NCBI RefSeq assembly: GCF_015595025.1
Contig: NZ_JADNRL010000005.1
Coordinates: forward strand, 62,001-126,000
Reading direction: 5' to 3'
DNA from: Halomonas sp. KAO
GTDB lineage: Bacteria; Pseudomonadota; Gammaproteobacteria; Pseudomonadales; Halomonadaceae
Length of the DNA stretch: 64,000 nt
Both the position numbers and the translations under genes were made by a program. Shown in pieces: positions 1 to 14,561 of the stretch. The notes under the pieces are model-generated. The model ran no database searches, was not told the DNA's origin, and worked only from the letters and a program-made list of their open reading frames with translations. Within the stretch, counting starts at the first letter, position 1, and every line of letters starts with the position of its first letter.

Positions 1-129
1 ACTCGGTGCGAGCCCGGCCCCATTGGCGCTTCTCTTTTCCAACGGTGCAAGGGTCACGCCGCAAGAAGACAGTGCGTGTCTCGAGAGGCAAACTGGACAT
101 CAGGCGATACGCGACCCCGAGGCTCCTCA

Positions 130-642
130 ATGACGGCACACCTGATCGACTTTAAAAACGCGGCCGAGGCCAAGCGCTGGCGGGCCATCAACGATGACGT
201 AATGGGCGGCGCCTCCCGCGGCAACCTGCATATGCAAGACGGCGTCGGGGTGTTCAGCGGCGAGACTTCCCTCGAGAACAACGGCGGTTTCGCCTCGGTG
301 CGCCGCGAGCCCGAGGCCATGGACCTGAGCGGCGCTCCGGGCCTGGTGCTCCATGTGCGTGGCGACGGCCGCCGCTACCAGCTGCGCCTGCGCTCAAACC
401 AACTGTTCGAGGGCGCCGCCTATCGGGCGCTGTTCCAGCCCCCCATCGGCGAATGGCAACGCCATGCCCTGCCCTGGCACGAGTTCGAGGCGGTATTCCG
501 CGGTCGGCGACTGGAGGGTGCGCCGCCGCTCGATCCCGCGGCGCTCCGGCAGGTGGGATTGCTTATCGCCGACCGGCGGTCGGGACCCTTTCGGCTGGAG
601 CTGGCGTGGATCGGGAAGATAAACGGCCAGGAAAGCAAATAA
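130..642 (+). CDS. CIA30-family protein (NADH:ubiquinone oxidoreductase intermediate-associated protein 30 fold)
   Basis: Predicted 170-residue soluble protein. The CIA30 signature INDDVMGGASRG lies at residues 20-31, a RYQLRLRSN strand sits mid-protein, and the C-terminus ends in an FRLELAWIG strand, as in this galactose-binding-like jelly-roll family. The mitochondrial relative helps assemble complex I. Bacterial members have no settled role, so no function is assigned. I chose ATG 130 because GAGG lies about 8 bases upstream and family similarity begins there; the longer frame from 76 adds 18 residues unlike the family. No signal peptide or membrane segment is seen. The next gene starts 168 bp downstream across an AT-rich spacer, so it is probably monocistronic or the end of an operon entering from the left. 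Confidence 0.85.
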   Translation: MTAHLIDFKNAAEAKRWRAINDDVMGGASRGNLHMQDGVGVFSGETSLENNGGFASVRREPEAMDLSGAPGLVLHVRGDGRRYQLRLRSNQLFEGAAYRALFQPPIGEWQRHALPWHEFEAVFRGRRLEGAPPLDPAALRQVGLLIADRRSGPFRLELAWIGKINGQESK

Positions 643-810
643 ATCCTCGTTTACTCCACTTTTTTAACACTCCTAAAACTTACAAAATTAGCTACTTTTT
701 ATTGTAAATGGTACGGTAGGGGGTCAGCTAAAAAGTGTTACTTCAAGGCATGATACTGGATTCTTTTGCCTGTCATGAGGTTCTGGTATGTTTAGGAGGT
801 CAACGCATTA

Positions 811-1068
811 ATGATGGATATCTTCAAGGTGGTTTACGATGGGGACACCATCGGTTTCTTCCCTGCCGCCACTTGGTGTCAGGCTTCCAAGACGGGAGCG
901 AACTTTCACCGTAAGCAGACCGGTGAAAACGTGCCTTGGGAGCATGTAACGACCACCTGGATCAATCCGAAGCATTACGAACAGGAGGGTGTTCCTGAAG
1001 AACTTTATGCCGCACCCTCCTCGACCGAGGTAAATAGTGCCGTCGAAAACGATCTTGCCACAGCCTAG
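811..1068 (+). CDS. Conserved-looking small protein of unknown function (85 aa)
   Basis: Not recognised. The 85-residue protein starts MMDIFKVVYDGDTIGFFPAATW, has a Trp/His-rich middle (PWEHVTTTWINPKHYE) and an acidic, Ala/Ser-rich tail. It has no signal peptide, membrane segment or metal-binding cluster. A near-perfect Shine-Dalgarno AGGAGGT at 794-800 sits 10 bases before ATG 811 (a second ATG follows at 814), and a rho-independent terminator follows at 1095-1124, so it looks like a real monocistronic gene. Codon use differs from its neighbours: GTT, GGT, GAA and CTT are frequent where the surrounding genes use GC-ending codons. This is compatible with either strong expression or recent acquisition. 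Confidence 0.7.
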   Translation: MMDIFKVVYDGDTIGFFPAATWCQASKTGANFHRKQTGENVPWEHVTTTWINPKHYEQEGVPEELYAAPSSTEVNSAVENDLATA

Positions 1069-1094
1069 TCTCTGCGCCTGCCCTTAAAACATAT

Positions 1095-1124
1095 AAGCCA
1101 TGCCATCCCGGTATGGCTTTTTTC
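1095..1124 (+). terminator. Rho-independent terminator after the 85-residue gene
   Basis: AAGCCAT at 1095-1101 pairs with ATGGCTT at 1113-1119, extended by one G:U pair, with a loop of about 10 bases and a T run to 1123. It lies 27 bp after the stop at 1068. Confidence 0.85.
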
Positions 1125-1271
1125 TGTTATTTTTTCCATTATCTTGTCTGGCTTTGGATCTTATACAAGTTCACTAATAATATGGGAAGCTAACCCATCC
1201 CTCGCATCACACAGAGCTCTCTGAAGCCAAACCACGTCTCGATTCGTGACTGACAATAAGGAAATACAGCC

Positions 1272-2672
1272 ATGACCGACTCCCCCCTCAAACTCCCGCT
1301 CCGCGAGCAGTATGCCGCTCTGCGCAGCGGCAAACTCACGGCCACCACGCTGGCAGAAACATCGCTGGAAGCTCACCGCATCCGCGGCCAGCACGATCAC
1401 GCCTACATGACCTGGAACGGCGAGGCTGCCCTCGCTCACGCCCAGGCTACAGATCAAGTGATTCGTCAGGGGGGAGACACCGGCGCGCTGATGGGCATCC
1501 CCGTATCGCTCAAGGATTTATTTGCGGTGCCGGGGCTGCCGACCTATGCCGGCTCGTCCCAGCGGCTACCATCACAGTGGGAGCAGGCCGGCCCGCTGGT
1601 CAGGGCCCTGCTCGCCCAGCTGCCCAGCGTGATGGGCAAGACCCATACGGTGGAGTTTGCCTTCGGTGGCCTCGGGACCAATGCCCACTGGGGAGCGCCG
1701 CGCAACCCCTGGGATCTCGAGAATCACCGAATATCCGGGGGCTCGAGCTCCGGAGCGGGGGTATCGCTGGTCGGGGGAACCGCAAGCCTGGCCTTCGGGA
1801 CGGATACCGCGGGCTCGGTGCGAATCCCCGCCTCCATGACGGGGGTGGCAGGCCTCAAGACCACCGCGAGACGCTGGCCCGGGAAGCAGATCGTGCCGCT
1901 CTCTCCTACCCTGGACACCCCTGGGCTGCTGGCTCATCGCGTCGACGACCTGGCGTTTGCCTTCGATGCCCTGGATGGTGCACTGACGGGCCGCGATGAC
2001 CGCGTACCGGCCCCTCCCGCCCTCGCCGATCTCACCCTTGGTGTACCCAGTGCGTTTTTCTGGGACGACTGCGGCCCTGGCATTGCAGAGAGCGTCGAAC
2101 GCGCCATCCGCCAGCTCGAGGCCGCCGGGGCGCGCCTGGTGACCCTGGATCTGCCCAACACCGATGAGGCGTATAGGCTGTTCCTGGAGGGGGGAGTTGC
2201 CGCGGCGGAGCTGTCGGCCTTTCTCAAGACCGACCTTCCCGAAGCGATCACCGCGCTGGACCCCAATGTTGCCGCCAGGGTCGAGGCGGTAGACGACATG
2301 CCCGCCTGGGAGTACGTGCGTCGACGCGCCCTTATCGACAAGCTGTATGGCATGGCCGAGAGGGAGATCGCCGGTGTGGACGCCATGCTCACCCCCACCG
2401 TGGCGATCACGCCGCCCACGGTGGGAAGTCTGCTTTCGGTGGAGGCCTATGCAAGGGCCAATATGCAGGCGCTGCGCAATACCATGATCGCCAACTTCAT
2501 GGGGCTGTGCGGGCTGACCCTGCCGGTGGGTAACGATAGCGCCGGCATGCCGGTGGGCTTGCAGGTAATGGCAGGCCCCCGCCAGGAGGCGCGACTACTG
2601 GCCATCGGCCAGAGCATCGAGCAGCGGCTCGGTACTGGGATCAGCATCCTCGGTGAGCCGCCAACACCGTGA
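1272..2672 (+). CDS. Amidase (amidase-signature family)
   Basis: 466-residue enzyme of the amidase-signature (GatA-like) family, hydrolysing a carboxamide to acid plus ammonia. The Ser-cisSer-Lys triad is visible: Lys81 in SLKD, the GGSSSGAG loop at 156-163 carrying the cis-Ser, and nucleophile Ser182 in GTDTAGSVRIPA. The length fits stand-alone amidases rather than GatA, and there is no gatB or gatC nearby. The substrate cannot be read from sequence; the family includes aliphatic and aryl amidases, allophanate hydrolase and amino-acid amide hydrolases. It starts at ATG 1272 after an AAGG box. Upstream is an AT-rich 150-bp leader after the preceding terminator, so it has its own promoter. It faces the convergent DUF4236 gene about 70 bp away. 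Confidence 0.9.
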   Translation: MTDSPLKLPLREQYAALRSGKLTATTLAETSLEAHRIRGQHDHAYMTWNGEAALAHAQATDQVIRQGGDTGALMGIPVSLKDLFAVPGLPTYAGSSQRLPSQWEQAGPLVRALLAQLPSVMGKTHTVEFAFGGLGTNAHWGAPRNPWDLENHRISGGSSSGAGVSLVGGTASLAFGTDTAGSVRIPASMTGVAGLKTTARRWPGKQIVPLSPTLDTPGLLAHRVDDLAFAFDALDGALTGRDDRVPAPPALADLTLGVPSAFFWDDCGPGIAESVERAIRQLEAAGARLVTLDLPNTDEAYRLFLEGGVAAAELSAFLKTDLPEAITALDPNVAARVEAVDDMPAWEYVRRRALIDKLYGMAEREIAGVDAMLTPTVAITPPTVGSLLSVEAYARANMQALRNTMIANFMGLCGLTLPVGNDSAGMPVGLQVMAGPRQEARLLAIGQSIEQRLGTGISILGEPPTP

Positions 2673-2743
2673 CCCACCCTGCGACTTCGGTAACGGATGC
2701 GACCTCAGGGCCAGCATCTTGACCGGGCTCAGGGCTCCTTCGC

Positions 2744-4015
2744 TTACACCAGCTTCAGCGGCTCGATATCGCGAAAGATCCCGGTCTTGGTCATGTCCCG
2801 GCGCAGGGTGAAGGCCTCGAGCGCCGCCACTGGGTCGATCTGCTCGAGGTTGTCGAACCCGATACGCTCCCACTGCTCCCGGGTCACCTTGACGCTATAG
2901 AGATACTGGTCAGATTCACTGCCGGTCGCCGGGTCGATGGTCTGGCGGTAGCCCGACACACGCGCCTCCTTGACCCCGGGCAGGCGGGCGAACACCGCCC
3001 CCAGCACGCGAAAGGCGATGCCATGCACATGATCACGATAGAGCTCGCGCTGACGCGTGGCGCTCAGCCGGCGGGGCGAAAGCTTGAGCTGCTTGGGGGG
3101 CATGGCCCAGTAGCGGTCCGGCATCTCCTCTTCCCCAGGCAGGTCGATATCCACCGCAATGGTCGATATATCGCTGCCCAGCTCGAAGTCGACCAGGGTC
3201 TCGCGGGGCCAGTCGATCTCCTCGAGACGCTCGCGCAGCGTCGCCTCCATGGCCTGGGGGTCATCCCACACCCCATCGCTCTCGCGCTGATAACGGGAAA
3301 ACTCCGCGGCATCATGCTCGGCCTTGCGCCACTCCCAGGCGCGATAACGCTCATCGAACTCGCTCTTGAGACGGGCACTACGCGCCTCTCGGCGGCGCCT
3401 CGCCGGCGGAACCAGGGCATGCCACCATACCGGCGACAGCGGTTGAAAGGGCGGTGGCGGGGCCTCGTCGAACTCGCTGACCTCATAGCCGTTGGACTCC
3501 GGCGACGGGGTCTCCTCGTGCAGCCGCCCCAGCCCCTCGATCTCGGCATTCAGACGGTCACAGTGGGCCTGGAACTGCTCGCGCAGGCTCGCCTCGGCAT
3601 GACGACGAATGATGCGTGCCTCGGCATCGTTCATGGGCGTGCCATCGTCGTGGAAATAGTGGAGCTGGCCGCTCTCGTCGATCTCCAGTCGCAGCGGCAC
3701 ACTATCGCCCTCGGCCAATCGCGCCTCGAGCGCCGCGGCATCGCCATGACTACAATCGCCACGACCGCTATCGCCACGATCGTTAGGGGGCGCAGCCTTC
3801 TGGCGGCCGCCGCTTGACTCACCGATATCGCGGCCATCCAGGCGCTGGCGATAAGCCAGGCCGGTGCCTGGCCCCCCCACATGGCCCTGCACACCAGCGG
3901 GGCCCACGCTCAGGCTGGCCCCCCGAGGCCCCACCGAAAGGCCGAGCCCCCCCTTGCCGAGGTTGAGACGAACACCCGGCGCCAGACGGATACGGCGCTG
4001 AAAACGAAAGGCCAT
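2744..4015 (-). CDS. DUF4236 domain-containing protein
   Basis: 423-residue protein. The first ~55 residues carry the DUF4236 pattern: [21 protein letters not shown] then [15 protein letters not shown], a glycine-rich beta motif. The rest is a charged, mostly helical region with an Arg-rich stretch ([15 protein letters not shown], about residues 205-220) and an acidic pre-C-terminal segment. The family has no known biochemical role. It lies 70 bp downstream of rmuC on the same strand, so it may be the tail gene of the long SMC-rmuC operon. The ATG at 4015 lacks a strong Shine-Dalgarno, but DUF4236 proteins begin with this M-x-FRFRRR motif, which supports the start. Confidence 0.8.
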
Positions 4016-4085
4016 GTCGGTTATCTACCATCCCTGTCGAAGTGACACTCATCGCCAGTCTAGCCGGCCCGGGCCGGCAGGGCAT

Positions 4086-5525
4086 TTAACGCTCTTCTCC
4101 CGCTCTCGGCTCGACCTGACTGGCGGGCCCCGAAGAGCCGACCTCCAGCCGAGCCCGCTCCAGCACCTCGGCGGGCAGCTCCTTCTTCACCGCCACGCCC
4201 AGCTCGCGGAACTCGCTGGCCTGCTTGACCAGGTTGCCACGCCCGTTGACCAGCTGACCCAGCGCCTTGTCGTAGCTCTCGCGAGCGCCGTCGAGCTTCC
4301 TGCCCACGTCCTGCATGCTCTCCAGGAAGGAGGAGAGCTTGGTATGAAAGCGCTCGGCCTTCCTCGCAAGCTCGGCGCTGTGGCGGCTCTGATTCTCGAA
4401 GCGCCATAGCTGGCCGACGATATTCAGGCTGGTCAGCAGCGTGGTGGGGGTAGCCACCAGCACATTGCGCTCGATGGCCCGCTGGTAGAGCGTCGCATCA
4501 TGACGCAGGGCCTCGATATAGGCCGACTCCACCGGGATAAACATGATCACCACCTCCGGGGAGTTGAGTCCCGGCAGATCATAGTAGTGCTTGTCCGCCA
4601 GCTCCTCGATGCGGTCACCCACGGCGCCGGCGTGGTCGGCCAGCGCCCGCTGGCGGGTCAGTTCATCCTCGGCGTTGACATACTCCAGATAGGCGGCGAG
4701 TGACGTCTTGGCATCGATCACCAGATGACGCCCCTCGGGCAGATAGACCAGCGCATCCGGGCGGCGCTTGCCCTGCTCGGTGGTGAAGCTCTTCTCACGC
4801 TGGTAGTCCTCACCCGCGCGCAGCCCCGCACTGTCCAGCACGTTTTCCAGCATCAGTTCGCCCCAGTTGCCCTGCACCTTCTTCTGCCCCCTGAGGGCTT
4901 CGGTCAGCTGGGCGGCCTGGTCGGTGATATCACGATTGAGCTGCTGCAGGTGCTTGAGCTCGGTGGTGAGGCTGGCACGCTGGGCGGTCTCCTGGGTGTG
5001 CAGGGTCTCGACCTTGTCGCGAAAGCCCTTGATCTCCTCCTGAAACGGCTTGAGCAGCCCCTGCAGGCTGCGCTCGGAGAGCGAGGTGAAGGCCCTGCCC
5101 TTCTGCTCCAGCAGCTCGTTGGCGAGGTTCTCGAACTCCACCTTGAGCTGCTGCTTGCTCTCCTCCATCCAGGCCAGCTGACGGGCGAAGTGGGCCTCCT
5201 TCTCCTCCAGCCGGGTGGTCAGTTCGCCATGGGTCTGCTTGAGCGCATAGTAGGCGTCGCGGAAGCGCTCGAGCTCACGCCCCCGGGCCTCGACGGCCTC
5301 GCGCTGGGTCTCCACCTCGCCCTCCGCCACCTGCAGCGCCACGGTCTGCTCGCGGGCCTCCAGCTGCTGGGCGTGAAGCGCGTCGCGGACCTCATCCCGC
5401 TGATGGCGCACGGCGCCTAGCCGGCGCTGCTGGAGAGAGAAGGTGATCAGTACACCGACCACAAGCGCTACCAGGCCGGTCAGGGCATGGCGCATATCGA
5501 GCTGCTGAAGAAGTTCCACGGTCAC
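4086..5525 (-). CDS. rmuC: DNA recombination protein RmuC
   Basis: 479-residue RmuC homologue. An N-terminal membrane segment (about residues 14-30) is followed by a long coiled coil (about 35-215), then the RmuC domain with GNWGE at 219-223 and a PD-(D/E)xK-like core (P256-D257 and D271-A272-K273 in LVIDAKTSLAAYL). In E. coli, RmuC limits inversion at short inverted repeats and is thought to be a nuclease-fold protein; its exact activity is unsettled. It starts 39 bp after the stop of the TOPRIM gene of the SMC cluster, on the same strand, so it is probably cotranscribed with it. That places two nuclease-like proteins at the end of one operon. Confidence 0.95.
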   Translation of the reverse strand: MTVELLQQLDMRHALTGLVALVVGVLITFSLQQRRLGAVRHQRDEVRDALHAQQLEAREQTVALQVAEGEVETQREAVEARGRELERFRDAYYALKQTHGELTTRLEEKEAHFARQLAWMEESKQQLKVEFENLANELLEQKGRAFTSLSERSLQGLLKPFQEEIKGFRDKVETLHTQETAQRASLTTELKHLQQLNRDITDQAAQLTEALRGQKKVQGNWGELMLENVLDSAGLRAGEDYQREKSFTTEQGKRRPDALVYLPEGRHLVIDAKTSLAAYLEYVNAEDELTRQRALADHAGAVGDRIEELADKHYYDLPGLNSPEVVIMFIPVESAYIEALRHDATLYQRAIERNVLVATPTTLLTSLNIVGQLWRFENQSRHSAELARKAERFHTKLSSFLESMQDVGRKLDGARESYDKALGQLVNGRGNLVKQASEFRELGVAVKKELPAEVLERARLEVGSSGPASQVEPRAGEER

Positions 5526-5564
5526 GTCATCCAGATAGGGAAGTTCGAGGGCATCGACGCCTCA

Positions 5565-6479
5565 TCACGGCGAGGATGGCAAGCCATCGTACAGCGCCAC
5601 CCGCTGCCAGCGCTCGGCATCGCCAAACCACTGCTGGCGCAGGCCGCGCTGGTCGTCCAGCAGAATCGCCAGAGAGTCGGCCAGCGGATGCCCGACGGGC
5701 AATCCGGCGACGTGGGCTCGCAGTCGTCGCTGATCGCTCTGCTGCTCCGGCGGCAGGTGCTGGGAGTTGGCCCGCTCGGCAAGGACCACCAGCGGCGGCA
5801 GCAGCAGATGCGTGGCGCCACTGGAGAGCGCGATGCCGACCCCCTTGGCGTCGAAATCCCCCAGATAGAGGTGCGGCTTGCCGCACGCTCTCCATGCCTC
5901 GGCCAGACGTGAGAAGCCGCCACCATAGTGGCGGTCGCCACGGTAGAGCACCAGCATCGATGACCAGCCCTCCAGGGCAGGAATCGCCGGCGAGAAGTCG
6001 TAGAAGCCATCCAGGTTCTCGATCTGCACCAGCACCTCGAAGGCGTCGAGGTCGATATCTCGCCAGTCGGTATCCACCACCTCGCGCTCGCGCTTGATCA
6101 GCCCGTCTCGCTTACCCATCGCCGGAAGGCTGGCCAGTACCCGCTGCTCCCGGGGCTTCTCGCGCATCGCCTTGTCCTCGCGATTGCCAAGCGCCGCCTG
6201 CTGCGTGGTGCTCAGACCACCGAGGTCGGCCCCCAGGGCAGGCTCGCCCAGGCCGACCAGGGTCTCGTCGATCATGCCAAGCAGTTCGGCGTCGAGTCGC
6301 AGCAGGTCATGGGTGAGACGCGCCCCGAGTTCGATATCGTGATCCCGGCACCACTCGATGATGGCGTTGGTAACAGCGCCACGTTTTTTCTCGACACTGG
6401 CTTTCTCGACACTGGCCCGATCGGCCAGCTCAGCCAGGGCGTCGCGCAGCAGCTTACGGGCTCGATTGGATAGCAGCAT
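5565..6479 (-). CDS. TOPRIM-domain protein, JetD/MksG-like subunit of a Wadjet-like SMC system
   Basis: 304 residues. The C-terminal half reads as a TOPRIM-type metal-binding fold: Glu154 in VLVQIENLDGF, then YRGDRHYGGG (179-188), then YLGDFDAKGVGI with Asp208 and Asp210. In JetD/MksG the same layout (E...N, then YWGDIDTHG) forms the nuclease that cuts plasmid DNA for the Wadjet SMC complex. The N-terminal half is helical and charged, like the DNA-binding arm of JetD. It is shorter than typical JetD. It lies 60 bp after the kleisin-like gene as the fourth gene of the SMC cluster. Residues 22-31 are a duplicated ASVEK unit from a 15-bp DNA repeat. The assignment rests on motif spacing and context, not on close identity; another TOPRIM nuclease is possible. 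Confidence 0.7.
   Translation of the reverse strand: MLLSNRARKLLRDALAELADRASVEKASVEKKRGAVTNAIIEWCRDHDIELGARLTHDLLRLDAELLGMIDETLVGLGEPALGADLGGLSTTQQAALGNREDKAMREKPREQRVLASLPAMGKRDGLIKREREVVDTDWRDIDLDAFEVLVQIENLDGFYDFSPAIPALEGWSSMLVLYRGDRHYGGGFSRLAEAWRACGKPHLYLGDFDAKGVGIALSSGATHLLLPPLVVLAERANSQHLPPEQQSDQRRLRAHVAGLPVGHPLADSLAILLDDQRGLRQQWFGDAERWQRVALYDGLPSSP
6387..6416. repeat. Perfect 15-bp tandem duplication inside the TOPRIM gene
   Basis: TTTCTCGACACTGGC occurs at 6387-6401 and again at 6402-6416, duplicating five codons (ASVEK) near the N-terminus without breaking the frame. Confidence 0.9.
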
Positions 6480-6539
6480 GGTAAGTAAACAGCCTGTTGG
6501 ATAGCGGCCTTTATACTGGCATGGCGAGCGGCTTGGCGC

Positions 6540-7778
6540 TTACGCCAGTTGCACGACGACGTCGTGGATCAGTCTCAGGTGATTGTAGGGGCTGGCCTGG
6601 CTCTCCTGCTGGCTCAGGCGAAAGGCGCGCTGCTCGTTGCGAGGCAGGCCCTGGAACTCGGCGATCACCTGGAACAGCCAGATCTCCTCGCCCCACTCAA
6701 GCTCGCCTTCCTGCCGATACCCCAGGGCGCTGACGCCCTCGCCCCCGCGGTCCACCACCGAGAGGTAGAAGCGCTCCACCTCCTCCTTGAGGGCCTGGTG
6801 ACGAGCGGCGACCAGGGCGTCCTCCTGGGGCGCGGCGGCACCGGCGGCGGTAACCGGCTCCGGACGCTGGGCCGGTCGCGGCAGCCGGTGCAGCAGCTCG
6901 GTCAGCGCCCGGCTATCGGGGTGATGGTCCAGGGCCGCGGCGCCGGCGGCGACCAGCGGCGTGGCACGATTGACCAGCGCCGGCACCTCGCCACGCCGAG
7001 CATAGTTGCCGGGCACGAACCCCGGGTGCTCGCGCAGAAAGCCGGCCATGCCGGCCACCAGGCGGCTGCGCGACTGCTGCTGGCGGAAGCGTGCCATCAG
7101 CTCAACCATGCGCCGCTGCACCTCGCGTAGGCTGGTGTAGTGCTGGGTGAGCTGCTGCTGCAGGCCACTGACCAGCAGCTTGCGCAGGGCGCCATCGCTG
7201 CCCACCAGCGCGATCAGCTCGTCGAAGTCGATCAGCGCCAGACCATCGAGCAGCCGCACGATCTGCTTCTGGGCCCGCTCGTTCTCGCGGATCTTGTCGC
7301 CCAGCCGGCTGACGAAGCCGAAGTCGCCGTTGAGGCGGCGCCACAGGCTGTCGATGGCATCGGCGAAGCGGCCGTTGAGGTCATCCACCTCCTGGCGAAG
7401 GCGCAGCAGCTGCTGCTCCTGGCGCCAGTATTCACCGCCATCGCGGGCCTCGCGGTAGCTCTGCACCAGGCTGCGCATAAGCTCCAGGGTCTCGGCCACA
7501 TCGGCGTTGACGTGGCGGCGACTCTCGTCGGCCAGCATCTCGGCAATCAGCTCCCGCACCTTGGGGGCGAGCTTGACGCCCCCCTGCTCGTCCGGGCGCC
7601 ACAGGATGCGGGCCGCCAGCAGCCGGTTGAGCGCGGTGGTGCTGAGCCCCTCCAGCGGCACCTCGTCCCGGGCGTAGCCCGCCATCAGGGCCTCGGCATG
7701 CTTGCCGAGCAGCGCCAGTCGCTCGACCCCGGTGGTGATCAGGCGGCTCTCCAGATCATGGGAGGGGGCATCACTCAC
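6540..7778 (-). CDS. MukF/MksF/JetA-like kleisin subunit
   Basis: 412 residues, almost entirely predicted helical, close to MukF length (about 440). The N-terminal ~80 residues look like a winged helix (LSTTALNRLLAARILWR, then VKLAPKVRELIAEML). The middle is a long coiled bundle with a conserved-looking DFGFVSRLGDKIRENERAQKQIVRLLD stretch around residues 150-175, and the C-terminus is a second small domain (LEWGEEIWLFQVIAEFQGL). An Ala/Pro-rich linker at about 295-315 separates them. This is the layout of a kleisin bridging SMC heads. It starts in an ATGA overlap (7775-7778) with the MukE-like gene, which implies coupled synthesis and a fixed ratio. I know of no closely matching named family; the role is inferred from size, architecture and position. 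Confidence 0.65.
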   Translation of the reverse strand: MSDAPSHDLESRLITTGVERLALLGKHAEALMAGYARDEVPLEGLSTTALNRLLAARILWRPDEQGGVKLAPKVRELIAEMLADESRRHVNADVAETLELMRSLVQSYREARDGGEYWRQEQQLLRLRQEVDDLNGRFADAIDSLWRRLNGDFGFVSRLGDKIRENERAQKQIVRLLDGLALIDFDELIALVGSDGALRKLLVSGLQQQLTQHYTSLREVQRRMVELMARFRQQQSRSRLVAGMAGFLREHPGFVPGNYARRGEVPALVNRATPLVAAGAAALDHHPDSRALTELLHRLPRPAQRPEPVTAAGAAAPQEDALVAARHQALKEEVERFYLSVVDRGGEGVSALGYRQEGELEWGEEIWLFQVIAEFQGLPRNEQRAFRLSQQESQASPYNHLRLIHDVVVQLA

Positions 7779-8476
7779 AGCAGGCTCTCCTGGCCACTGG
7801 GCGCCTGGTCATCCACCGGCAGGTTCTCCTCGTCGCGAATGAAGCGCACCAGATCGATGAGGTAGTCGATCTTGGCGGTGACCAGGTAGTACTGGCGATC
7901 GGGATGGGGTTGCAGCAGATAGCCGTGCTCCCTGAGCCGCTTGAACACCTGCTTGAGCTGGGCATCGAGCTGGTCGCTCTGGGAGCCGAAGAAGGGATCG
8001 CCCGCCAGGCGCTCGAGGCGCTCGCGCAGCCCCTGATGATCCTCACAGCGGGAGCTGAAGTCGGCTGGCTTGAGCACGTCACCCGGGGCGGCCGGGCCAT
8101 CGCGCCCCAATGCCTCCTGCACCAGCTGCAGCCACTCCAGCAGCGGGAGCAGGCTGTTGACGGTATCCGCCAGCTGTCGGGAGAGCTGCTCCCGGGCCCC
8201 TTCATCGAGGGTTCGCCAGGCCAGGAAGACGACGCTGCCCTCTTGGTTGGTGGCCAGTCGCCGATTGAGCGGACGTAGATAGGCATCGATCCGCTCGCGG
8301 GTCCGCTCGTCCTGCAGGTGACGAAAGGCGCTTTCGTCGCTGACCGCACAGAGGAACTCGCCGGCCAGCAGCCGCTCGATCAGGGGCCCCAGCGCCACCA
8401 GGGAGCGCTCGGGGCCGGCGTGTGCCGACATCATCGCCTCGTCGCTTTCCGCTTGGGGCTTCACGTCCTGGCTCAT
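7775..8476 (-). CDS. MukE/MksE/JetB-like subunit
   Basis: 233 residues, matching MukE length (about 234). It has two helix-rich blocks: an N-terminal one with VALGPLIERLLAGEFLCAVSDESAFRHL, and a C-terminal winged-helix-like one with KQVFKRLREHGYLLQPHPDRQYYLVTAKIDYLIDLVRFI (about residues 178-216). JetB/MksE proteins share this tandem winged-helix plan and clamp the kleisin and DNA. It overlaps both neighbours by four bases (ATGA at 8473-8476 and 7775-7778), so all three are translationally coupled. No catalytic motif is present and none is expected. The call depends on context with the SMC ATPase upstream and the kleisin-like gene downstream. Confidence 0.65.
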   Translation of the reverse strand: MSQDVKPQAESDEAMMSAHAGPERSLVALGPLIERLLAGEFLCAVSDESAFRHLQDERTRERIDAYLRPLNRRLATNQEGSVVFLAWRTLDEGAREQLSRQLADTVNSLLPLLEWLQLVQEALGRDGPAAPGDVLKPADFSSRCEDHQGLRERLERLAGDPFFGSQSDQLDAQLKQVFKRLREHGYLLQPHPDRQYYLVTAKIDYLIDLVRFIRDEENLPVDDQAPSGQESLL

Positions 8477-11400
8477 GATGCCACCTCCTCGGCGCGCGCC
8501 TGCAGGCGCTGGGCCAGGCGGCTCAGGCGGGGCTCGATACGCTTGAGCCGCCGCTTGGCGGGCTCGGCCTCGTCACGGTCGATCAGATAACGGTTATGGA
8601 ACAGCAGCAGCACGTCCGACTCCGGGTTGGGGAAGGCGCCGACGATATGAATATGGTTGTTGTCACAGGCATCGAACAGCTTCTCGACGTTGTGGTAAGC
8701 GAGGGTACCGATCTCGTCGATCGGCCAGTGGATGGCGATCTCCGCCGGCCCGCGCAGCAGCCGGGTAAAGGCGAGCAGGAACTTGCACAGGATCAGATAG
8801 GCCATGCCGTGGCTGGAGGACTCCAGCAGCTGACGATCATTGCGGATCACCAGGTCGGTACCGCCCTCGTTGAGATGTAGTTCCAGGCGCAGCAGGCTCT
8901 CGAAGCTGTACTGCTGATCACTGCGCAACAGCTCGACCACATCGGCCAGGCTGTCGAGATAGTCGTCACCGGGAAGCGGCTGGCCCGAGTCGCGCCACTC
9001 GCGGTAGTGCCGGGAGAATCGCTTGAGCGGTTCCCAGAAGCCCAACTCGTCGATGGTGGACTGGATCTTCACCTCGGCGCGGCCGATGCCCTCGAGCTTG
9101 AGATCGTCGGCCACCTCATCCGACAGGCGCCGGCTCTGGGCACTGATACGCCGGTTGAGGTCGCTGAACACGGTAAAGAACTTGTCGAGGTCATCGGAGA
9201 GGTTGCGCCCCTCCTGCAGCAGCTGCTGCTGTTGGCCCTCGAGAAGCTGCAGCATGCCGGCGATCACCGGCAGCAGGCGACGCGGGCTCTCGCCATCGAG
9301 CCGGGCACGCTCAGCCTCCAGGGTATCCTGGAAGTCGGCGCTGGCCCCCTTGATCAGCTCGGACTCCAGTTTCTCGCAGCCGCGGCGCAGTGCCTCGAGC
9401 TCGCGGGCATGATCGGTAAGCCCCTGGCGCAGGCGCTCGATGCGCTCCTCGGTATCCCCGGGCACCTCGCCGAGGGGCTCGGGGGCCGCCACCAGGGCGA
9501 GGGTCTCGAGCTTGTCGAGCAGCGGAGCGAGGGTCTCCACCAGCCTGCTGGCCGCATCACGGCGGGCCGTGAGCTCATTCACCGTCGCGCGGTGCTCGTC
9601 GCGGGCGGCGTGGAAGTCGGCGCGGTGCTGTTGACGTCGACGCTCGAGGGCATCGCGCTCGCGGGAGAGCTCGGCCTCCTTCTCCACCAGCCGCGGCTTG
9701 CGCTCGCCCCACTCCACGCGCATGAAGCGGGCATAGGCATCGAGCTCCTCGCGGCGTTCCTCGGTATCACGGATGCGCCTGGCCAGAGCCTCCATGCGTG
9801 CACGGGTCTCGCGCACGCTGACCGGATCGACCCCCTGCTCCGCCAGTTCGCGGTCGTAAGCGGCGTTGAGCTCGTCACGCTGGCGGCGGTGCTCCTCCTT
9901 GTGCTCGGTGAGCCGACGGCGGTGCTGCTGGATCTGCTGGTCGAAGCCGGCCAACCGCGCCTGGAAATCGGCGGTAAGCTCGAGGCGCTGGGCACGGTGG
10001 CCACCGGCCAGTGATTCCAGGGCCTGGCGCTGCTCCTCACGTACGGCCTGATGGGCGGCCTCCTGCTCGGCCAGCGATTCACGGCTGGCGGCCTGGCGCG
10101 CCTGCTGGGCGGCGGCATGGCGCTGCTGGCACTGGCTGCGCGCCTGCAGGGCGTAATCCACCTCTTCGGCGGCGCGGCGGCGCGTGGTGCGGGCGCGCTC
10201 CAGGCGGGCGTCGACCTCCTGCACCCTTTGATGGCTGGCCCGCAGGGACTTCTCGGCCGCCTTCTCATCCTCCCGGGCTTCGCCCAGCGCCGCCTCGGCG
10301 GCAGCGATGGCGGCCTGCAGCTCGGCCTCGTCCTGGGCATAGTCGGGCGGTTCGATGGCGGCCAGATCCAGCGTCAGGCCGAAGAGGTCATCGCTCGCCC
10401 TGTCGTTGAACTGCGGGGCGAGGTCACGCCGCTCCAGCAGCTCGGGCGCCACCACCTTGCCCAGGGTCTGCTCCCAGCCCGGGCGGTGATGGCGCAGGAA
10501 GTGACGCAGGCTGCCCTGGGCGGGGTCGCGCTGCAGCTGCAGCGCCGTGAGGTGCGCCTCGGCGCGAGACCGTCGAGCCCGGGCCCTCTCCAGCCCGTGC
10601 TCGGCGGCGTCGCGCTCCTGCTTGCGCCCATCGAGCTCGCCACGCAGCTGCTCCATGGCCGCCGCGGCAGACGCCTGTTCACTCTGGGCCTGGTCGACCC
10701 GAGCCTGGGCCTGCTCCGCCTCGCGGGCCTCCTCGGGGCTCTGGGCGGTGTGCGAAAGGCCCGCCTTGAGCTCGGCAAGGCGCTCGGTGATCTGCTCCAG
10801 ACGGGCGCGGTAGTCGTCGTCCAGCGCCTGGCGGCGAGCCTGATAGTCGGCATCCAGGCGCCCCTCGGCCTCGCTCTGCTGGTCGCGACAGGCCTCCTTC
10901 TCCTCCCCCAGGGCATCGATCAGGCCCTGAAGTTCATCGCGTCGCGCCTCGAGGAGGTCACCCAGCTCCACCAGGCGTGCCTCCAGCTTGGCCTTGCTCT
11001 CCTTGACCGCCTGCTGCATCACCTCCAGATGATCGCGTAGCTGTTGCTGCTGCTCACGCCACTGGGGCAGCGCCTTGAGATCCTGCTCCAGACTCGGCAT
11101 ATCGGCCGCCTCGAAGGCCTCATACTGGCGCTGCAGGTCATCGAGCACGCCGCGGGTCTGCTCCAGCTCACTCTGCAGCTCGCTGGCGCGGTCGTTGTAG
11201 GCATCGCGCTGCTCGCGGTAGGCCGTCTCGCGGGCCTGGAAGTCACGCTGGCGCTGCTGAATCTCGGCCTCACGCTCGGCCTTCTCGCGCTCGGCGCGGT
11301 GACGATCGGCCTCCAGCTGGGGCTTGAGCTGCCAGAGCGAGGCCTCGAGATCGGCGATCTCGCGATCCAGGCGCTCCAGCTCACCCAGCGAGCGCTGCAG

Positions 11401-12150
11401 GGGCTCCAGGCGCATGGACTGACGCATGCGGGCGATCCACTCACGGGCCTTGGTGTTGCGAATGCGGGTCACCGGCAGCTCGACGCCATCCTCCTCGAAG
11501 ATCGCCGCCAGCATGGTCTTGAGGGTGTCCATCTTGCCCTCCTTGGCGTGCACCGCCGAGACCAGCTTCTCGATATGGCGGATGCGCTGACCGGGCCGCA
11601 CCAGGCTGAAGCGAGCGGCGGTCTGGCGCAGGCGCAGCCCCTCCCTGCTGTTGCCCCGGGGCTGGCTGCCGGTCTGGGTGAAGTCATTCTGGATCACCGC
11701 ACGATACTCGGAGGTGGCACCCAGCTTGGGCGAGACCGATACCCCCCGGCGGCGCAGGCCATTGCTCCACTGGGCATAGTCCAGCGCCACCACGCCGGCG
11801 TCGCTCTGCACCAGATAGTCCTCGGGCCGGTAAGCATCGCCCACGAAGCGATACTCCACCCCGCCCTCCCCACGGCGGGTCAGCACCGCCTGGCAGAGAT
11901 CCCCCTCCTCGCGACGGTACTCATACACGAGGTAGCTGTTGCGATGGGGCAGATAGAAGGCGTCGAACTTGAGGCGTGTGCGCGGCACCACCCGATTGGG
12001 CAGCTCACCGTAGAATACCGGCACCAGCCGCTGGAGGGTGGTCTTGCCCGAGGCATTGGTACCGCAGATATTGGTGTGGCCATCCACACTGAGCTCGACC
12101 ACTCCCTCGAGGTGGCCGTGGATCATCACGATGCGTAGCAGCTGGCCCAT
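8473..12150 (-). CDS. SMC/MukB-type ATPase (DUF3584-like), JetC/MksB-like core of a divergent Wadjet-like system
   Basis: 1225 residues. The N-terminal ATPase half carries Walker A GTNASGKTT (30-38) and YLP (66-68) after FDAF; GKT plus YLP is the pair that defines the DUF3584 family. Long heptad-rich arms run from about 225 to 530 and from about 610 to 1000, flanking a non-coiled hinge-like block (about 538-606). The C-terminal head has a degenerate ABC signature SSHGMAY (1112-1118) in place of LSGGE, then Walker B IHWPIDE (D1145, E1146). It would dimerise, bind DNA and drive loop extrusion, as in MukB and JetC. I chose ATG 12150 because AGGGA lies 6-7 bases upstream and similarity begins at GQLLRIVMIH; the frame from 12207 adds 19 Arg-rich residues. 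It is the first gene of the cluster. Confidence 0.8.
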   Translation of the reverse strand: MGQLLRIVMIHGHLEGVVELSVDGHTNICGTNASGKTTLQRLVPVFYGELPNRVVPRTRLKFDAFYLPHRNSYLVYEYRREEGDLCQAVLTRRGEGGVEYRFVGDAYRPEDYLVQSDAGVVALDYAQWSNGLRRRGVSVSPKLGATSEYRAVIQNDFTQTGSQPRGNSREGLRLRQTAARFSLVRPGQRIRHIEKLVSAVHAKEGKMDTLKTMLAAIFEEDGVELPVTRIRNTKAREWIARMRQSMRLEPLQRSLGELERLDREIADLEASLWQLKPQLEADRHRAEREKAEREAEIQQRQRDFQARETAYREQRDAYNDRASELQSELEQTRGVLDDLQRQYEAFEAADMPSLEQDLKALPQWREQQQQLRDHLEVMQQAVKESKAKLEARLVELGDLLEARRDELQGLIDALGEEKEACRDQQSEAEGRLDADYQARRQALDDDYRARLEQITERLAELKAGLSHTAQSPEEAREAEQAQARVDQAQSEQASAAAAMEQLRGELDGRKQERDAAEHGLERARARRSRAEAHLTALQLQRDPAQGSLRHFLRHHRPGWEQTLGKVVAPELLERRDLAPQFNDRASDDLFGLTLDLAAIEPPDYAQDEAELQAAIAAAEAALGEAREDEKAAEKSLRASHQRVQEVDARLERARTTRRRAAEEVDYALQARSQCQQRHAAAQQARQAASRESLAEQEAAHQAVREEQRQALESLAGGHRAQRLELTADFQARLAGFDQQIQQHRRRLTEHKEEHRRQRDELNAAYDRELAEQGVDPVSVRETRARMEALARRIRDTEERREELDAYARFMRVEWGERKPRLVEKEAELSRERDALERRRQQHRADFHAARDEHRATVNELTARRDAASRLVETLAPLLDKLETLALVAAPEPLGEVPGDTEERIERLRQGLTDHARELEALRRGCEKLESELIKGASADFQDTLEAERARLDGESPRRLLPVIAGMLQLLEGQQQQLLQEGRNLSDDLDKFFTVFSDLNRRISAQSRRLSDEVADDLKLEGIGRAEVKIQSTIDELGFWEPLKRFSRHYREWRDSGQPLPGDDYLDSLADVVELLRSDQQYSFESLLRLELHLNEGGTDLVIRNDRQLLESSSHGMAYLILCKFLLAFTRLLRGPAEIAIHWPIDEIGTLAYHNVEKLFDACDNNHIHIVGAFPNPESDVLLLFHNRYLIDRDEAEPAKRRLKRIEPRLSRLAQRLQARAEEVAS

Positions 12151-12299
12151 GTCGCGTCCCTGGTCGTTGGCATGCCGATCACCGACCCGTCGCCGGTGAG
12201 CGCACATAGTGCCGGAGGCGCTAGCTCATCTCAATTGGCCGCTGTCGTCGGCAACCCTTGCCGGGCCGGGTAGGCAGGTAACAGGCAGAAAGCTCGAAG

Positions 12300-12360
12300 C
12301 AAGGTGAGGAAAGGGGTGAGAGGTGAGGAATGAGGTGGGGATAGTGGTGGAGAAAAGAGT
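12300..12360. repeat. Purine-rich imperfect GGTGAG repeat tract
   Basis: About 60 bases almost purely A/G on the plus strand, with repeated GGTGAGGAA and GGTGAGAGG units, between the SMC operon leader and the 33-codon ORF. The rest of the 12151-12393 gap holds no recognisable gene; one short hairpin GGCCA-TCCC-TGGCC lies at about 12371-12384. Confidence 0.6.
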
Positions 12361-12393
12361 CGCGACGGTTGGCCATCCCTGGCCGCGGGGCGC

Positions 12394-12495
12394 TCAGTCG
12401 ATATAGGTACTGATGGCCTCTTCAGACGCCTTGATCGCTTCCGCCTGACGCAGCAGATGCTCCAGGACTTCCGGGGTATGAATGGGCAGTGACAT
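12394..12495 (-). CDS. Small ORF of 33 residues, unknown function
   Basis: ATG at 12495 to TGA at 12394 encodes a 33-residue acidic amphipathic peptide starting MSLPIHTPEVLEHLLRQAEA and ending AISTYID. A strong AGGAG lies 7-8 bases upstream of the ATG, and a good sigma70-type promoter (12524-12552) precedes it, which is more signal than chance small ORFs usually have. It reads away from the M48 protease gene. It is not recognised as any known family. The helix EVLEHLLRQAEAIKASEEA suggests a protein-binding peptide, but that is inference only. Confidence 0.55.
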   Translation of the reverse strand: MSLPIHTPEVLEHLLRQAEAIKASEEAISTYID

Positions 12496-12523
12496 CGTGA
12501 CTCTCCTAGTTGTTTACCCGGCT

Positions 12524-12552
12524 AATAAAACGCATCACCGCAGGGTTTTCAA
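12524..12552 (-). promoter_or_regulatory. Sigma70-type promoter for the 33-codon ORF
   Basis: On the minus strand, -35 TTGAAA (plus-strand TTTCAA at 12547-12552), a 17-bp spacer and -10 TTTATT (plus-strand AATAAA at 12524-12529), about 29 bp upstream of the ATG at 12495. Confidence 0.6.
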
Positions 12553-12688
12553 TCCTTGGGAAGTATTTCCATAAAATTTTACGTGCTGACATACACTGTT
12601 ACAGACACGGGTGCCGCCTTGGTCAGCGGCCAGGCCTATCACGGGTCTGCCGGGGCCTTTCATGTGGCTCCCCAACAGGAGATTCGCC

Positions 12689-13642
12689 ATGCGCTCTCGC
12701 CTCACCGCCCAGCGGCTGCATAACACCTGCCAGCACCTGCTGATTCTGGGCGGCATGTCGATACTGCTCGCCATGCCGGCCTGGCTGCTGGCGGGCCCCG
12801 TGGGCGTGCTGTGGGTCTTCGGCCTGGTAATGCTGACCCTCTACCTCGGGGGACGAATTCCGGCCAGGCTGGTGCTGGCGCGCAGTGGCGCCGGGGCGCT
12901 GCACCGGCATCAGGCGCCGCAGCTCTACCGGGTCATGGAGCTGCTCTACCGGCGCGCGGGGATCACCCAGCCACCCTGGCTCTTCTATGTTCCCTCCCCG
13001 GACCTCAACGCCTTCGCCGTGGGCGATGCCCGGGACGGAGGCATCGCGATAACCGAGGGCCTGCTGCACAGCCTGCCCCTGCGCCAGCTGGCCGGCGTGC
13101 TGGCCCATGAGGTCAGCCATCTGCGCCACGGTGATACCCGAGTGATGTCCATGGCCGCCACCATGACGCGACTCACCGTCTGGGGCGCCATGCTGGTGCA
13201 GCTGGCGCTGATTGCCCTGCTGCCGATGGTCATGGCCGGCGAGATCCGCATGCCCTGGCTCGAGCTGCTCGCGGTCGGCCTGGCGCCCCTGGCCAGCTCC
13301 CTGCTGCAGCTGGCCCTGTCGCGCAACCGCGAGTTCACCGCGGACCTGGAGGCGGCGGCACTGACCCGCGACCCCCAGGCGCTGGCCGAGGCTCTCTCTC
13401 TACTGGAACGGCGCAACGGCATCTGGCTGACGACCCTGTTCGGTCGCCGGCAGCTGCCGGGCTGGCTGCGTTACCTGCAGACCCACCCGCCCACCGGCGA
13501 GCGGATCCAGCGCCTGATGGCGCTGGCCGAACGCCAGGGCCCCAGGCCGCCCTCGGGGCGACCCTATCGCCCTCGTGAACCGCTGGTGGAGGCGCCTCCC
13601 GAACGCCGCGGCCATCGCTACTGGCTGGGACGGCGGCGTTGA
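12689..13642 (+). CDS. M48-family zinc metalloprotease (HtpX-like)
   Basis: 317-residue membrane metalloprotease. The zinc site HEVSH is at 140-144 and the third ligand region RNREFTAD has Glu215. Two hydrophobic segments precede the catalytic domain (about 17-37 and 38-55), and one or two more lie at about 163-183 and 190-210, so the active site faces the cytoplasm as in HtpX. HtpX-type proteases degrade misfolded membrane proteins. I chose ATG 12689 because AGGAG lies 8 bases upstream and the first membrane segment follows directly; the frame from 12611 has no supporting site. The tail is Arg/Pro-rich (GRPYRPREP...[12 protein letters not shown]). It is not a close htpX orthologue by length or tail, so no symbol is given. 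Confidence 0.85.
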
Positions 13643-13706
13643 GAGTTGCCGTCCCGCCCTGGACGCCTACAATGCCGCGACATCAAACCGTTACGGGGAG
13701 AGAGCA

Positions 13707-14561
13707 GTGAAATATATCGGAGCCCATGTCAGCGCCGCCGGTGGTGTCGACAAGGCGGTGGAACGCGCGGTAGAGATCGGGGCCAACGCCTTCGCGCTTT
13801 TCACCAAGAACCAGCGTCAGTGGCGGGCCAAGCCCCTCACCGACGAGGTGATCGAGGCCTTTCGCAGCGCCTGCCGGCGCCATGGCTTCGGACCCGGCCA
13901 GATCCTTCCCCATGACAGCTATCTGATCAATCTGGGTCACCCGGAGGCCGAGGGACTGGCGAAGTCACGGGCGGCGTTTCTCGATGAGCTGCAACGCTGC
14001 GAGCGGCTCGGCATCGACCGCCTCAACTTCCATCCGGGCAGCCATCTGCGCAAGATCAGCGAAAGCGACTGCCTGGCGCGCATCGCCGAGTCACTCAACG
14101 AGACACTCGCCCAGACCCGCGGCGTCACCGCGGTACTCGAGAATACCGCCGGCCAGGGCAGCAATCTGGGCTGGCGCTTCGAGCATCTCGCCGAGATCAT
14201 CGAGCAGGTGGAGGAGAAGTCACGGGTCGGGGTGTGCATCGATACCTGCCACGCCTTCGCCGCCGGCTACGAGCTGCGCACCCGGGAGGCCAGTGTGGCG
14301 ATGCTCGACGAGTTCGATGCCGTGGTGGGCATCGAGTACCTCAAGGGCATGCACCTCAACGATGCCAAGAGCGAGTTCGGCAGCCGGGTCGACCGCCACC
14401 ACAGCCTCGGCCAGGGCAATATCGGCAGCGACTGCTTTACCGCCCTGATGCAGGACCCACGCACCGACCATATGCCGCTGGTGCTGGAGACCATCGAGCC
14501 CGCCATCTGGGCCGAGGAGATCGCCTGGCTGCGTGCCCAGGCCGCCGCGTTGGCGGAGTGA
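13707..14561 (+). CDS. nfo: Endonuclease IV (AP endonuclease)
   Basis: 284 residues, matching E. coli Nfo (285). It starts at GTG 13707 with the family N-terminus [13 protein letters not shown], preceded by GGGGAGAGAG; the upstream in-frame extension from 13575 overlaps the protease gene and is unlike Nfo. Trinuclear zinc-site motifs are present: [58 protein letters not shown] and LETIEP. It cleaves DNA at abasic sites and removes damaged 3' ends during base excision repair in the cytoplasm. It stands 64 bp after the M48 gene and 90 bp before the TRAP operon, and is probably its own transcription unit. Confidence 0.97.

Follow-up and report, generated by a model that had tools for sequence, protein, structure and literature searches.

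A branch of the MksBEFG/Wadjet superfamily in Halomonas sp. KAO with a leading SMC gene and a nuclease absent from many relatives

Several described SMC systems resemble the gene cluster considered here. Corynebacterium glutamicum MksBEFG and type I Wadjet (JetABCD) each combine an SMC ATPase, a KITE protein, a kleisin and a TOPRIM nuclease in one operon, as does this cluster. The published mks order is mksFEBG, Gram-negatives included (PMC10123090), and Pseudomonas aeruginosa MksBEF is reported to act in chromosome organisation and segregation (PMC7485682). How Wadjet relates to other SMC complexes was described as unsettled in a 2023 review (PMC10586767). The present cluster lies in a stretch of 64,000 nucleotides (nt) of the Halomonas sp. 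KAO genome (contig NZ_JADNRL010000005.1, positions 62,001 to 126,000; hereafter the window) and represents a branch of the MksBEFG/Wadjet superfamily in which the SMC gene comes first. We consider it probable (roughly 0.65) that it encodes a complex of the MksBEFG/Wadjet type whose motor is a second chromosomal condensin beside SMC-ScpAB and whose nuclease is an optional plasmid-defence module. The observations made here are those of gene content, gene order, TOPRIM residues, repeated nuclease loss and selection on the nuclease-less core.

The cluster occupies the minus strand of the window from 12150 to 5565 and reads SMC (B), KITE (E), kleisin-like (F) and TOPRIM nuclease (G), as follows:

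8473..12150, minus strand: SMC ATPase B (MksB/JetC-like, DUF3584), 1225 residues, first gene; PF12128, 782 bits; Walker A, SSHGMAY and PIDE present

7775..8476, minus strand: KITE protein E (MksE/MukE/JetB-like), 233 residues; PF21980 MksE, 27.3 bits; PADLOC JetB1, E 1.8e-5

6540..7778, minus strand: kleisin-like protein F (MksF/MukF/JetA-like), 412 residues, GTG start; assigned by predicted fold, without a family match

5565..6479, minus strand: TOPRIM nuclease G (MksG/JetD-like, DUF7281), 304 residues; PF23947, 40.9 bits; E154, D208 and D210

The four open reading frames have the positions and lengths given in the first-pass annotation, a reading of the DNA alone, and all four genes are retained with the nuclease intact. 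That annotation had joined the first three genes by ATGA overlaps, which is correct for B/E; the overlap of E and F is GTGA. The nuclease gene of the window starts 60 nt past the kleisin stop, and in many relatives the G start codon picked by our script gives a 4-nt overlap with F, which fits a single operon. The order SMC-KITE-kleisin held at every locus where all three genes turned up, and the SMC-first (C-B-A-D) arrangement proposed earlier was found at every locus examined; this constancy across families rules out chance open reading frames.

The nuclease was frequently missing from otherwise complete clusters. Within the family of the window, G was present at 32 of 42 complete loci and absent beside an intact B-E-F at the other 10. 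Scanning a single genome from each species yielded 387 relatives, and the best 80 of these, all Alteromonadales (Alteromonadaceae and neighbours, Shewanellaceae), were used; an iterated profile placed G directly after F in 14 of these loci and detected none in 66, absence being judged inside the fetched flanks. Such absences beside an intact SMC-KITE-kleisin core point to a core role independent of the nuclease. The four genes are associated beyond chance, given their constant order and the finding that 34 of the 36 family genomes with DUF7281 over the cut-off also had DUF3584, which itself occurred in only 44 of 121 (conversely, 34 of the 44 DUF3584 genomes had DUF7281). The earlier expectation that the four genes would co-occur in other genomes was thus borne out, whereas their description as one unit applies in part, the nuclease being detachable.

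Constraint on the remaining genes was as strong without the nuclease as with it. The ratio of nonsynonymous to synonymous substitution rates (dN/dS) of B, E and F was 0-0.066 in 12 nuclease-less pairs and mostly < 0.11 in 10 nuclease-bearing pairs, two very closely related pairs being higher; the nuclease itself gave 0.09-0.33. Median identity to the window proteins over 30 loci was 66% for B, 73% for E, 74% for F and 49% for G. All 77 nuclease-less loci keep the Walker A and PIDE patterns, and 76 of them keep SSHGMAY. The nuclease-less core is therefore under strong purifying selection, and its retention in many relatives after loss of the nuclease suggests that it also performs everyday chromosome work. 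Because ScpA was detected in 25 of 26 genomes and MukB in none, and the genome of the window also encodes a canonical SMC, B-E-F would be a second condensin in these cells. The absence of MukB (PF04310) from all 26 genomes, that of the window included, with an Escherichia coli control over the cut-off, also excludes the identification of the cluster as MukBEF. MukBEF shares the KITE/kleisin type, and MukF entries head the fold matches of F; MukBEF is not known to have a nuclease.

On a B-E-F tree of 127 loci (FastTree; approximate, unrooted and with long outgroup branches), the presence of G must switch a minimum of 13 times, 11 of these switches being forced by well-supported branches, where shuffled labels averaged about 40. 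The tree leaves out L094 (cut contig), L100, L101, L103 and L105 and includes L099, which is without a kleisin; L175 was scored as nuclease-bearing, and the short kleisin of L053 (263 residues) was used as is. Among the omitted loci, L100 has a nuclease, and L101 is a short SMC fragment without one. Change counts from an unrooted tree alone cannot separate gain from loss. However, stubs of the start of the G gene lie directly after F in 5 of the 77 nuclease-less loci, and G is carried by each of the four distant loci that form the outgroup of the tree. Distances of G and of the core were correlated at 0.92 (0 of 999 permutations as high), and the two trees had 33 of 46 splits in common, with 2 of 23 strong G splits contradicting strong core splits. 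The stubs, the nuclease-bearing outgroups and plasmid copies (see below) and the congruent trees make loss the better reading, and the same stubs, outgroups and congruence oppose a history in which the nuclease was gained rather than lost.

At 22 of 26 Shewanellaceae loci, of which 10 carry G and 12 do not, the downstream gene is the same; from its sequence, we take it to be a GltP-like transporter. The remaining four loci, all without G, lack that gene. The shared gene lies 1217-1273 nt past F where G is present and 341-589 nt past F where it is absent. In the opposite direction, locus L103 (genome G102) is a decayed cluster: a nuclease gene at 8558-9343 follows a C-terminal kleisin fragment, and the fetched sequence contains neither the SMC gene nor the KITE gene.

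Whole genomes were searched for G in the 10 nuclease-less family genomes, in genome G259 and in the Shewanella set. A relocated nuclease was found by the profile in neither 9 of the 10 family genomes nor G259, by a search that is insensitive to distant copies: the divergent nuclease of genome G312 was overlooked by it and detected by the iterated profile. In genome G034, the same search gave only a 40-residue remnant of G with a stop, just after F. Within the sensitivity of the search, these results oppose a movement of the nuclease elsewhere in the genome. Contig ends hiding the gene were ruled out, as more than 4 kb of sequence extends past the kleisin gene in all ten nuclease-less family loci. 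In Shewanella, G matches occurred in 33 of 77 genomes, 31 of them intact and adjacent to B, one a stop-bearing fragment beside the cluster (G421) and one elsewhere (G468). The match in G468 (contig 1, 2101244-2102122) is the only nuclease match of that genome and lies more than 1.2 Mb from the SMC gene.

The distribution of the SMC gene was uneven. DUF3584 exceeded the cut-off in 7 of 274 genomes drawn from the class of the window. A draw of 398 genomes from the phylum gave 22, every one of them a member of that class, and the family was present in all 77 Shewanella genomes (in two frames in G465). All four genes, arranged as B-E-F-G, also occur together on plasmid 1 of Aromatoleum aromaticum (L186, 5980-12404) and on the conjugative Marinobacter nauticus plasmid pMAQU02 (L188, 5926-12403), where they are annotated as ATP-binding or hypothetical proteins. 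A Citrobacter IncHI2 plasmid (L187, 7989-8654) held only an N-terminal SMC fragment adjoining insertion sequences, and several enterobacterial plasmids among the matches listed had a similarly short SMC match. Within the genus of the window, a second, divergent B-E-F-G cluster (L095, genome G039, 1-13814; SMC 27% identical) is flanked on both sides by genes that we take to be transposase-like.

The complete plasmid-borne quartets agree with an alternative in which the system is a divergent Wadjet devoted purely to plasmid defence, and so do the uneven occurrence of the locus and the variety of its neighbours within the family of the window. On this alternative, nuclease-less copies would be decaying or would defend in a way that involves no cutting, such as plasmid condensation. 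The similarity of all four parts to Wadjet/Mks parts and the fast evolution of the nuclease, as is common for defence genes, would also fit. This alternative nevertheless accommodates poorly the equally strong purifying selection on cores without the nuclease, the Walker motifs retained at every nuclease-less locus and the presence of the core SMC throughout Shewanella, and we regard it as rather unlikely.

The assignment of G rests on family, residue and fold evidence. In addition to the DUF7281 match of the window protein, all 14 aligned homologues matched DUF7281, 9 matched the TOP6A-Spo11 TOPRIM model and 6 matched JetD_C; the window protein itself had no JetD_C match at E <= 1. The residues E154, D208 and D210, singled out in the first-pass annotation, were invariant in 14 of 14 homologues and in 49 of 49 in a wider alignment, which omits L175 because its nuclease is split over two frames. 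At the TOPRIM domain, a profile of G matched Spo11 with E 0.0077 and Topo VI-A with E 0.018, and alignment with the JetD of a type III Wadjet cluster (L104) by hhalign gave 96.1% and E 3.4e-9. With the predicted structure, Foldseek placed Topo VI-A first (E 6.8e-3), and VIA-align gave Z 10.7 for Topo VI-A, 10.2 for C. glutamicum MksG (8b7f) and 8.5 for P. aeruginosa JetD (7til). The TOPRIM fold anticipated for this short protein was therefore recovered, and G belongs with the nuclease subunits of the JetD/MksG kind.

The prominence of Topo VI-A and Spo11 among the nearest sequence and fold matches, and of the TOP6A-Spo11 model among the homologues, could also be read as a sign that the complex serves chromosome maintenance, with G a topoisomerase or decatenase that aids the motor and cuts no plasmids. 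Topo VI-A, however, requires a catalytic tyrosine, and no tyrosine upstream of the TOPRIM domain was invariant or near-invariant in the 14 homologues, so that a nuclease fits better than a topoisomerase. As MksG and JetD match G about as well, and repeated loss and fast evolution would be strange for an essential helper, this reading appears highly improbable.

The other three proteins were identified with differing clarity. The PF12128 match of B spans positions 1-1190 of 1191, and its Walker A (GTNASGKTT), variant signature region (SSHGMAY) and Walker B (PIDE) are as first described. The MksE match of E was barely over the cut-off of 27 bits, and the same family was matched at E <= 0.01 by 8 of 10 E homologues, which places E among the MksE-family KITE subunits. 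For F, Pfam gave no family match, and comparison of F, E and B with Protein Data Bank sequences by profile gave chance-like matches only. When the predicted structure of F (pLDDT 77.2, pTM 0.44) was searched with Foldseek, the six top-ranked chains came from entries for MukBEF, JetABCD, MukE-MukF or MukF, with E between 3.2e-3 and 0.047 and TM-scores of at most 0.32. These chains were taken as MukF or JetA from entry titles and lengths. F is likely a kleisin, judging from this predicted fold. With SMC, KITE and a kleisin recognised by fold at modest scores in one operon, the cluster falls within the MksBEF(G)/MukBEF-like SMC superfamily, and the Wadjet/Mks-like composition inferred from the sequence at the outset was upheld, with an MksE match for E and a MukF/JetA-like fold, at modest scores, for F.

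The cluster is distinct from canonical Wadjet. Its matches in PADLOC-DB 2.0.0 were weak (JetB1 for E at 1.8e-5, the best; JetC3 at 5.4e-5, over a coiled-coil stretch; JetD3 at 0.031; no match for F), whereas the positive control L104 (genome G023, same family) scored 946 bits (JetA3), 2597 bits (JetC3) and 660 bits (JetD3). Together with a gene order different from kleisin-KITE-SMC-nuclease, this rules out Wadjet types I, II and III. L104 (7740-15543) is, by PADLOC, a full type III cluster; it shares TOPRIM homology with the window cluster and differs in its A-B-C-D order (the second gene was called JetB from position alone), its 1478-residue SMC and its SGGQ signature. Compared with MksBEFG and type I Wadjet, the branch of the window shows the weak PADLOC matches and a nuclease often missing from relatives, and its SMC gene leads where the published mksFEBG order places the kleisin gene first (PMC10123090). 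Compared by parts and gene order, P. aeruginosa MksBEF and the nuclease-less relatives share all three components, which in the relatives occur beside SMC-ScpAB, and differ in the arrangement of the genes. The earlier view of a distinct branch thus stands. NCBIfam 20.0 gave generic SMC matches far under the cut-off and nothing for E, F or G. In the literature searched (titles and openings of abstracts), no description of the SMC-first branch or of its nuclease loss was found, and the 2011 study that named MksBEF may include the branch as a condensin.

Next to the cluster, an RmuC-family gene (PF02646, 325 bits; window 4086-5525, minus strand) begins 39 nt past the nuclease stop. The same neighbour occurs at L063 and L068 and at no others among the 53 loci searched.

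By analogy with JetABCD and MksBEFG, the B ATPases, the F kleisin and the E KITE proteins may assemble into a motor that pulls DNA into loops. G, a TOPRIM nuclease that resembles Topo VI-A and has no conserved catalytic tyrosine, would cut circular DNA after a small circle has been drawn in by the motor. Complex assembly, loop extrusion and plasmid cutting would then be shared with those systems, and the B-E-F motor would do chromosome work as a second condensin alongside SMC-ScpAB, the nuclease being an optional anti-plasmid module dropped by many lineages. With its nuclease intact, the window cluster would be expected to have both motor and cutting activities. Several observations weigh against this interpretation. 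The family of the window has the SMC gene in only 44 of 121 genomes and shows 12 upstream neighbour groups among 42 loci, which is less housekeeping-like and less fixed than in Shewanella. The predicted structure of G has low confidence (pLDDT 64.5), that of F had no Foldseek match at E <= 0.001, and the VIA-align Z of 11.5-12.2 between F and MukF/JetA-type entries lies inside the range of unrelated helical bundles.

A broader reading, for and against which we see about equal weight, is that the DUF3584 branch is a four-part plasmid-cutting SMC system that repeatedly turns into a housekeeping condensin, with marine gammaproteobacteria losing the nuclease and the motor becoming fixed in every Shewanella searched. 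If so, the shift from defence to chromosome work could be followed by comparing sister species, some of which still carry partly erased nuclease genes. The branch is widespread and hardly named by PADLOC-DB 2.0.0 or NCBIfam 20.0. Its many nuclease losses, some with a remnant, in sister species sharing the same locus make testable whether one motor serves the chromosome while the nuclease acts as a separable weapon.
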